Source: Bdellovibrio sp. CG22_combo_CG10-13_8_21_14_all_39_27 (GTDB lineage: Bacteria; Bdellovibrionota; Bacteriovoracia; Bacteriovoracales; Bacteriovoracaceae). From it: a stretch of DNA of 47,663 nucleotides. Below the pieces are notes generated by a model. The model was not told the DNA's origin, did no database searches, and saw only the letters and a program-made list of their open reading frames with translations. Numbering within the stretch: position 1 is the first letter of the stretch; each line of letters starts with the position of its first letter. Shown here in pieces: positions 45,820 through 47,578 of this stretch. The DNA lies in NCBI GenBank assembly GCA_002786715.1, contig PCTW01000043.1, forward strand, positions 124,628-172,290, in the 5' to 3' direction. The position numbers were made by a program, and so were the translations under genes.

Positions 45820-47139
45820 TTACGGCGATAATCGACTTATATCTCTAGGAAAGAGTGAACATCGCTTCACACTCTCTAAACCAATAATCTTTTGAGTTAA
45901 CCGCTCTAGACCCAATCCAAAGCCACCATGAGGAGGAAGCCCGTAACGATGGGCCTTAATGAAAAACTCAAAATGCTCAGGATTCATACCTCTTCTTTTT
46001 AATTTATTAACAATGGCCTCATATTCATGAATTCTTTGTCCTCCCGTGGTGATTTCAACACCACGATAGAGCAAGTCAAAGCTCAAGCTCTCTTCAGGAT
46101 TAACTTCGCTGTCCATGGCATAGAATGGCCTTTTCTCTGATGGGTAATGAGTGACAAAAAGAAAATCACTTCCCCACTGCGATAGCGCCCACTCCGAAAT
46201 TTTTAGCTCTTCCTGAGGTGATAAGTCGGGCTCATTTTCTTCATGAATTCCAAATTCACGAGAAACAATGACTTTGACTTCTTTAAAAGTAAGTGAAGGA
46301 ATGGATTCAAATTCTTTCAAGCTTATACCCAAGAGCTCGAGCTCAAAAGAACATTCCAACTTCAGGAATTCAAAAACTTCTTTTAAAACTCCTGTTTCAA
46401 AGGCCATGACCTCTTCAAATGATGAGATGTTGCCAATTTCAGCATCGACAGAAATATATTCATTGAGATGGCGACTGGTATTATGCTTTTCGGCCCTAAA
46501 TACCGGAGCAATTTCAAAAACGCGTTCGAAAATTCCCACGCCAAACTCTTTATAAAACTGAGGACTCTGAGTTAAGTATGCTGGTTGTCCGAAATAATTC
46601 AGCTCAAAGATATTGGCCCCGCCTTCAGCTCCCTCCTTTACAATCTTTGGCGTTCGAAGCTCTGTACAACCTCTTTTTCGTAAAGCTCGTCGAAAACCTT
46701 CTCCCAGAGCTTCTTGAATTTTGAAAATTGCTTTTTCACGCGGATGCCGAAGAGAAATCATTCTTTGATCAAAGAGCACATCATTGTGAATATTGAGCTC
46801 AGGTTTAGTTAAGTCAAAGGGTGACGACTCATAATGAGTAGATAAAGTCTTCCACTTTGAAATTTGAATTTCGATCGTCTTACTCGCCAAAACCTTATCT
46901 TTAAGTTTCGCCGTCACGACTTTGCCCCAGACGTGAATCGAACTTCCCTCTTTCAAAGAGCACTCTCCAGTGATCACCGATTGAAAAATACCGGCCAAAG
47001 TTGAAAGATGTACAAATGAAAACTGCCCAAGATTTTTTATCTTATAGATCGTTCCAGTGAAATCGACATCCGCATCTACCATTGACTCAGGGTTGATAAA
47101 GAACTGATTTAATTCTCCTGCTGGTAAAATCGATTTCAT
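45820..47139 (-). CDS. aspS: Aspartyl-tRNA synthetase, archaeal/non-discriminating type
   Basis: A 439-residue class IIb synthetase: N-terminal OB-fold anticodon domain (about 22-100), motif 1 region, AYLTQSPQFYKE, motif 2 FRAEKHNTSRHL (214-225) and motif 3 with GGFGLGLERL (405-414). It lacks the GAD insertion of the roughly 590-residue bacterial AspRS, so it is of archaeal type (AspRS2), which in bacteria often charges both tRNA-Asp and tRNA-Asn. The start is ATG 47139 with GGAGG 5 nt upstream. A leader ORF and terminator directly upstream suggest attenuation control. Confidence 0.93.
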   Translation of the reverse strand: MKSILPAGELNQFFINPESMVDADVDFTGTIYKIKNLGQFSFVHLSTLAGIFQSVITGECSLKEGSSIHVWGKVVTAKLKDKVLASKTIEIQISKWKTLSTHYESSPFDLTKPELNIHNDVLFDQRMISLRHPREKAIFKIQEALGEGFRRALRKRGCTELRTPKIVKEGAEGGANIFELNYFGQPAYLTQSPQFYKEFGVGIFERVFEIAPVFRAEKHNTSRHLNEYISVDAEIGNISSFEEVMAFETGVLKEVFEFLKLECSFELELLGISLKEFESIPSLTFKEVKVIVSREFGIHEENEPDLSPQEELKISEWALSQWGSDFLFVTHYPSEKRPFYAMDSEVNPEESLSFDLLYRGVEITTGGQRIHEYEAIVNKLKRRGMNPEHFEFFIKAHRYGLPPHGGFGLGLERLTQKIIGLESVKRCSLFPRDISRLSP

Positions 47140-47151
47140 AAAAGCCTCCAT

Positions 47152-47181
47152 AAAAAAAAAGCCCCGCGATAGGCGGGGCTT
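47152..47181 (-). terminator. Terminator/attenuator in front of aspS
   Basis: On the minus strand AAGCCCCGC pairs with GCGGGGCTT (9 bp) across a CTATC loop, followed by a U-run. The U-run ends 2 nt before the aspS GGAGG, so a polymerase stopping here makes no aspS mRNA. Its 5' arm can instead pair with the end of the leader ORF. Confidence 0.9.
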
Positions 47182-47225
47182 CAAGCTTGAACATTTAATT
47201 AATTTGGACTAGTTCAAACGACCCC
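47175..47225 (-). promoter_or_regulatory. Candidate antiterminator of the aspS leader
   Basis: On the minus strand GUUUGAAC (47219-47212) can pair with GUUCAAGC (47192-47185): 8 bp, one wobble. Outside it, across an asymmetric internal loop, GGGGU (47225-47221) can pair with GCCCC (47179-47175), the 5' arm of the terminator. The two foldings exclude each other. Confidence 0.65.
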
Positions 47226-47295
47226 TAAATAATGAGCTACGATCATCATCTGATTTAAATACTTTTGAATGGGGTGTTGTTTGAGAAATACTCAT
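47209..47295 (-). CDS. Asp-codon leader peptide of aspS
   Basis: A 28-codon ORF with its own AGGA Shine-Dalgarno 4 nt before ATG 47295. Codons 16-18 are three consecutive GAT (Asp) codons (47250-47242), in the peptide segment KSDDDRSS. It ends 27 nt before the terminator stem that precedes aspS. Layout matches leader peptides of amino-acid attenuators such as the Phe-rich leader of E. coli pheST. No homologue known to me; a stand-alone small protein cannot be excluded. Confidence 0.65.
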   Translation of the reverse strand: MSISQTTPHSKVFKSDDDRSSLFRGRLN

Positions 47296-47453
47296 CTCTT
47301 CCTTTATGACACAGGTCTTTATGTGATTCAATTCAAGTAAGTTTTTGCCAGACAAAATCCCCGAACTTCAAAGAAGCCCGAGCTCAATATCTAACTCTTT
47401 GAATTTACTATTTAAAATAAACACAAAAAAGTGCCTTAACCCCTTAAAAAGAC
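47296..47453. other. Intergenic region between the aspS leader and the tRNA promoter
   Basis: Together with the leader this forms the longest gap between conventional genes. It must hold the minus-strand promoter of the aspS leader, but I find no convincing -35/-10 pair. No other ORF, repeat or hairpin stands out. Confidence 0.5.
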
Positions 47454-47482
47454 TTGACGAAAATCTCATGTATTCCTATACT
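47454..47482 (+). promoter_or_regulatory. Sigma-70-type promoter of tRNA-Asp
   Basis: TTGACG (47454-47459) and TATACT (47477-47482) with a 17-bp spacer, about 20 bp before the tRNA. Followed by G+C around the start (CTGCCC), as in strong stable-RNA promoters. Confidence 0.85.
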
Positions 47483-47501: not shown

Positions 47502-47578
47502 GGGGGCGTAGTTGAGTTGGTTACAACATCGCCCTGTCACGGCGAAGGTCGACGGTTCGAGCCCGTTCGCTCCCGCCA
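47502..47578 (+). tRNA. tRNA-Asp (GTC)
   Basis: A 77-nt cloverleaf: acceptor GGGGGCG/CGCTCCC with discriminator G and encoded CCA (47576-47578), anticodon stem TCGCC/GGCGA around anticodon GTC (47536-47538), T-loop TTCGAGC. It is divergent from the aspS leader and has its own promoter and terminator. Confidence 0.97.

Follow-up and report, generated by a model that had tools for sequence, protein, structure and literature searches.

In Bacteriovoracaceae, the gene for an archaeal-type aspartyl-tRNA synthetase (AspRS2) appears to be controlled by transcription attenuation of the trp/pheST type, in which a translating ribosome would sense the charging of Asp-tRNA, a reading to which we assign a probability of about 0.87. 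The evidence comes from a window of 47,663 nucleotides, that is, the whole stretch of DNA analysed from Bdellovibrio sp. CG22_combo_CG10-13_8_21_14_all_39_27, and from a comparison with related genomes. Sequence and comparison establish the parts of the proposed attenuator, their conservation, covariation and spacing, and the inventory of synthetase genes.

We infer the start of the transcript, the stalling, the termination and the reserve role of the enzyme as follows. RNA polymerase would start at or beside the ATG of a short leader ORF. When Asp-tRNA is plentiful, the translating ribosome would reach the stop codon of the leader and mask an RNA segment (segment 2), so that a terminator hairpin (3:4) forms. 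When Asp-tRNA is short, the ribosome would stall at a run of Asp codons, masking segment 1, and segment 2, just past the leading edge of the stalled ribosome, would pair with segment 3, thereby blocking the terminator and allowing AspRS2 to be made. If the leader is left untranslated, a 1:2 hairpin would form, leading again to termination. In the genome of the window, which also encodes a bacterial AspRS with no such leader, AspRS2 would act as an inducible reserve.

The leader peptide ORF spans 47209-47295 on the minus strand, has 28 codons and encodes MSISQTTPHSKVFKSDDDRSSLFRGRLN, followed by a stop. The proposed stall site is a run of three consecutive Asp codons, GAT GAT GAT (47242-47250, minus strand), and both features lie exactly where a previous sequence-only reading of this DNA had placed them. 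The search for counterparts covered 129 genomes of the family, 12 of which carry AspRS2, and at 7 of these 12 genes the same layout was found, namely a terminator preceded by a short ORF in which Asp codons are clustered. The AspRS2 genes sharing the leader are 55-61% identical to that of the window, and the AspRS2 tree has three main subclades, two of which contain the leader, a distribution that takes a minimum of two changes. An attenuator is expected to have a short leader ORF whose regulatory codons specify the relevant amino acid; such an ORF is seen here in sequence and conserved over seven genomes, its translation being predicted. The Asp clusters of the seven leaders read SDDDR, NDDDCCD, NDDDS, FDDDSWD, DQDDLDCD, SDCDDSDDS and CDCDD, and 72-96 nt separate the ends of the ORFs from the aligned start of the gene. 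Taken over the seven leaders, the control windows of 8 codons each hold 26 Asp among 56 residues, versus 4 of 151 in the remainder of the same ORFs, a count biased upward because the ORFs were chosen for containing DD.

The content of these clusters raises the question of whether Asp is the only amino acid sensed. In two genomes aspS2 heads an operon with a second synthetase copy: a second serS lies 10 nt after aspS2 in G023 (L055:4665-5909), whose leader reads ...SDCDDSDDSN..., and a second cysS lies 17 nt after it in G017 (L056:4330-5748), whose leader reads ...YCDCDDS.... Ribosome-mediated attenuation that senses Cys or Ser too, chiefly in operons that join aspS2 to a second serS or cysS, would account for these leaders. 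The match between the Asp and Ser or Asp and Cys codons and the respective operon is only suggestive, as Ser and Cys occur in other leaders too. In particular, Cys is also found in leaders with no downstream cysS (L006, L014), the control windows show no enrichment of Ser (7/56 versus 24/151), and the leader of the window has Asp alone as a run. A sensor of several amino acids is therefore considered unlikely, and attenuation through Asp codons is the preferred reading.

The RNA segments of the Asp attenuator are all encoded on the minus strand. Segment 1 (47271-47284) consists of UCAAAC and ACCCC, and lies within the leader-coding sequence. Segment 2 (47212-47225), the 5′ arm of the antiterminator, reads GGGGU C GUUUGAAC and begins 16 nt past the last Asp codon. 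Segment 3 (47175-47192), the 3′ arm, is formed by GUUCAAGC and GCCCC. The sequence-only reading had proposed that GUUUGAAC (47219-47212) pairs with GUUCAAGC (47192-47185), GGGGU (47225-47221) with GCCCC (47179-47175), and ACCCC (47275-47271) with the same GGGGU; all three pairings hold, and the last is lengthened by UCAAAC (47284-47279). Segment 3 overlaps the 5′ arm of an intrinsic terminator (47158-47182, minus strand) located between the leader ORF and the gene, so that antiterminator and terminator are mutually exclusive, as attenuation demands. The GC-rich terminator, described earlier as a 9-bp stem, is indeed present at that place but measures 10 pairs, 7 of them GC, with a predicted energy of -18.3 kcal/mol. 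It runs into nine U (47152-47160, minus strand), and the end of this run stands, as had been noted, 2 nt before the Shine-Dalgarno of the synthetase gene (47152 versus GGAGG at 47149-47145).

The pairings were examined by exchanging arms between species, a check that needs no alignment and is independent of the alignment used for pair counts. Cognate 2:3 arms pair at -19.8 kcal/mol on average versus -13.0 kcal/mol for arms swapped between species, the best of 5040 permutations of seven leaders that are not fully independent, L006 and L015 being close relatives. The cognate 1:2 pairing, which uses leader-coding sequence as in classical attenuators, ranks third among the 5040 permutations of the same seven leaders; its weakest instance is in L018 (-11.1 kcal/mol). 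Aligned as raw sequence with MAFFT (A1, A3), the leaders have their arms out of register; pairs were counted on an N-padded alignment (A4), whose manual padding followed the structure and hence favours it. In the antiterminator, with five leaders aligned by element, double changes occur at 7 of 13 pairs and 89% of the cells are paired; none of 500 shuffles matches the covariation values, and the signal collapses when the alignment is slid by one column. No excess covariation was counted for the terminator on A4, because this alignment shifts the terminator of L018 by two positions. In other words, the comparison of relatives suggested by the earlier reading finds ORF, Asp codons and terminator kept together in seven genes, with covarying antiterminator and 1:2 helices.

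The geometry of the leader is equally consistent. In every one of the seven leaders, 12-17 nt separate the end of the run's last Asp codon from segment 2, about the distance to a ribosome's leading edge, so that the stall codons are placed relative to the antiterminator as attenuation requires. The leaders were also folded with and without ribosome masking, as had been proposed. Before the 3′ arm of the terminator is made, the antiterminator has a probability of 1.00 if a ribosome occupies the Asp codon and of 0.00 if it occupies the stop codon, in 7/7 leaders each. Spacing and folding together support, in all seven leaders, the claim that an Asp-stalled ribosome would free segment 2 and a ribosome at the stop codon would cover it. 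With no ribosome, the probability of the antiterminator before the 3′ arm is made is also high (0.74-1.00), and the untranslated state appears ambiguous in the folding model. At equilibrium and with the 3′ arm made, the terminator beats the antiterminator in most leaders; antitermination must therefore be kinetic, as in known attenuators.

Alternatively, the hairpin might terminate constitutively and so limit read-through into aspS2, with the Asp ORF as a chance frame. A strong hairpin would in fact cut expression with no sensor at all; those of the seven leader-bearing genes have -12.4 to -18.3 kcal/mol and end 18-42 nt before the gene. The distribution of the elements makes the explanation highly improbable. 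The remaining AspRS2 genes, five from the family and two from other families, show no Asp-cluster ORF and no hairpin stronger than -8.5 kcal/mol; the terminator is found at 7/7 genes with a leader ORF versus 0/7 without, and each of the genes with the terminator, and none of the others, has an Asp-rich ORF. Among the 14 AspRS2 upstream regions, no case was found of the pattern that the earlier reading would have taken as contrary evidence, a terminator kept without the ORF or its Asp codons. Moreover, an Asp-Asp ORF at the equivalent distance arises in just 0.75-3.7% of dinucleotide-shuffled upstream regions versus 7/7 homologous leaders, the antiterminator and 1:2 pairings covary, and no same-strand gene that would need a terminator lies between it and the divergent tRNA gene upstream.

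The arrangement was also recovered only before this gene. Five leaders were used to build a covariance model, which scores its own members at 92 to 47 bits, and in a run over the 129 genomes all its strong matches stand before AspRS2. L010, outside the model, ranks first in its genome (35.4 bits, E 0.003); L007 scores only 21 bits. The other matches of 28-36 bits that were inspected were rejected, as most of them fall at the end of a long gene with an ordinary terminator behind it.

Upstream of the leader ORF of the window lie a -10-like hexamer, CATAAA (47303-47308, minus strand), 7 nt before the ATG, and, 17 nt from it, a -35-like hexamer, TTGAAT (47326-47331, minus strand), which reads TTGACA in L006 and L015. 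In 7/7 cases a TATAAT-like hexamer precedes the leader ATG by 6-7 nt, the best of 67 offsets (score of 31 versus a mean of 19.2, sd 2.9), and the summed -35/-10 score of the seven leaders is 59 versus a shuffle mean of 42, with none of 5000 shuffles as high. From this position of the -10-like hexamer, transcription is predicted to begin with the A of the ATG or the base beside it (47295-47296). The leader ORF is thus probably leaderless, and the Shine-Dalgarno that the sequence-only reading had assigned to it, although present in the DNA, would lie upstream of the transcript start and go unused; it is absent in most relatives. Control of the terminator by a trans-acting or metabolite-sensing RNA, be it a T-box, a riboswitch or a protein-bound leader, with the ORF irrelevant, is scarcely credible: Asp T-boxes are known in Firmicutes and do use a terminator/antiterminator choice, but the stems and sequence that a T-box carries upstream of its terminator were not detected, as the Rfam search of the window matches tRNA only and gives no T-box or riboswitch, no conserved structure was seen upstream of the ORF, and a T-box stem I would not fit on a transcript that apparently starts at the ATG.

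The controlled gene (45820-47139, minus strand) had been taken for aspS. It does encode an aspartyl-tRNA synthetase, specifically the archaeal-type second AspRS rather than the bacterial housekeeping enzyme, as it matches NCBIfam NF003483, ‘aspartate--tRNA(Asn) ligase’ (475.8 bits, cut-off 353), and a separate bacterial AspRS is encoded in the same genome (C21:22111-23856, 678.6 bits). Its closest solved structure is Thermus AspRS2 (1n9w), a non-discriminating enzyme of the archaeal type. In Deinococcus and Thermus, the role of AspRS2 is Asn synthesis on tRNA (PMC4206432). For a non-discriminating AspRS, GatCAB would be expected in the same genome; no GatB was found in the genome of the window (G000) or in 10 other searched family genomes with AspRS2, and AsnRS is present in all AspRS2 genomes, that of the window included. 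Given this inventory, AspRS2 is unlikely to serve tRNA-dependent Asn synthesis here, and with GatB absent its automatic name is doubtful. Loading Asp on tRNA-Asn would probably be harmful in these cells, and a switch based on Asp codons fits an AspRS2 that would serve tRNA-Asp; since AsnRS occurs in all AspRS2 genomes and GatB in none of those searched, Asp is a sensible amino acid to be sensed. A scan of the genome contigs with the synthetase gave one distant match, which was discarded as unrelated.

As for the reserve role, no Asp-Asp ORF was found in the upstream regions of bacterial AspRS genes. The bacterial AspRS is present in 5/7 genomes with the leader versus 1/6 without, an association that is only a trend. 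It was not found in G023, a 99%-complete genome that bears the leader, or in G022, and a reserve role of AspRS2 is therefore not universal. G019, which has AspRS2 and no bacterial AspRS, carries a second AsnRS-like gene above the asnS cut-off (C100:2645-3919, 453 bits).

Two further observations concern the surroundings of these genes. Head-to-head with the leader, the window contains a tRNA-Asp (GTC) gene (47502-47578, plus strand) with its own promoter-like site (47454-47482, TTGACG-17-TATACT); a tRNA-Asp gene near AspRS2 was not seen at the loci of relatives, and the adjacency is therefore not part of the mechanism. Elsewhere in the family, two stand-alone second serS genes (L088, L089) are preceded by Ser-rich short ORFs (...GLCVLSLSSK and ...VSSFSSLSSC) and then by a similar hairpin-like stretch with no clear adjoining U-run, and are noted as candidate Ser leaders.

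It may be general in this family that a spare synthetase lies behind a cognate leader. A tentative extension, which we regard as conceivable but do not favour, is that the spare AspRS2, second SerRS and second CysRS are silenced behind leaderless leaders with matching codons and induced when charging of the respective tRNA fails, two-spare operons using both codons. If so, induction would occur, for example, under attack by synthetase inhibitors or overload of the main enzyme, and reserve synthetases of this kind would bear on bacterial survival of such inhibitors. If the Asp attenuator is real, aspartate joins the amino acids sensed by leader-peptide attenuation. In addition, the sensed amino acid would hint at the job of a misnamed enzyme, as the Asp codons before an AspRS labelled for tRNA(Asn), in genomes with no GatB, point to tRNA(Asp).

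Classical attenuation is already known, and its Asp version is apparently new within the literature searched: as the sequence-only reading had supposed, full-text searches, of incomplete coverage and thus compatible with an earlier prediction, found no described Asp-leader attenuator. One close parallel is the pheST attenuator of E. coli, in which the PheRS operon is under a Phe-rich leader peptide. As proposed for AspRS2, a synthetase gene is there controlled through a terminator, an antiterminator and a leader peptide that carries the amino acid of the enzyme; here, the amino acid is Asp rather than Phe, the enzyme is an archaeal-type second synthetase, and the leader ORF is probably devoid of a 5′ UTR. 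T-box RNAs also let synthetase expression answer the charging of its own tRNA via a terminator/antiterminator choice, as proposed here, but they bind the tRNA directly with no translation, whereas translation of the leader is proposed for AspRS2, in a window where Rfam finds no T-box. The aspS gene of Shewanella is similarly preceded by a predicted structured 5′ UTR with a terminator, labelled only ‘tRNA synthetase leader’ (PMC2659441); in the part of that source consulted, no Asp leader peptide is described for it. In mycobacteria, leaderless short ORFs with a run of Cys codons act as attenuators (Canestrari et al. 2020, cited in PMC9031893), the same combination of leaderless ORF and codon run; unlike the present case, they serve Cys biosynthesis operons, with no obvious intrinsic terminator (PMC1262725). 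Finally, attenuators have been predicted for trpS2 and leuS of Streptomyces (Seliverstov et al. 2005, PMC1262725), which differ from the AspRS2 leader in amino acid and phylum and share with it a classical attenuator before a synthetase gene, trpS2 being likewise numbered as a second gene.
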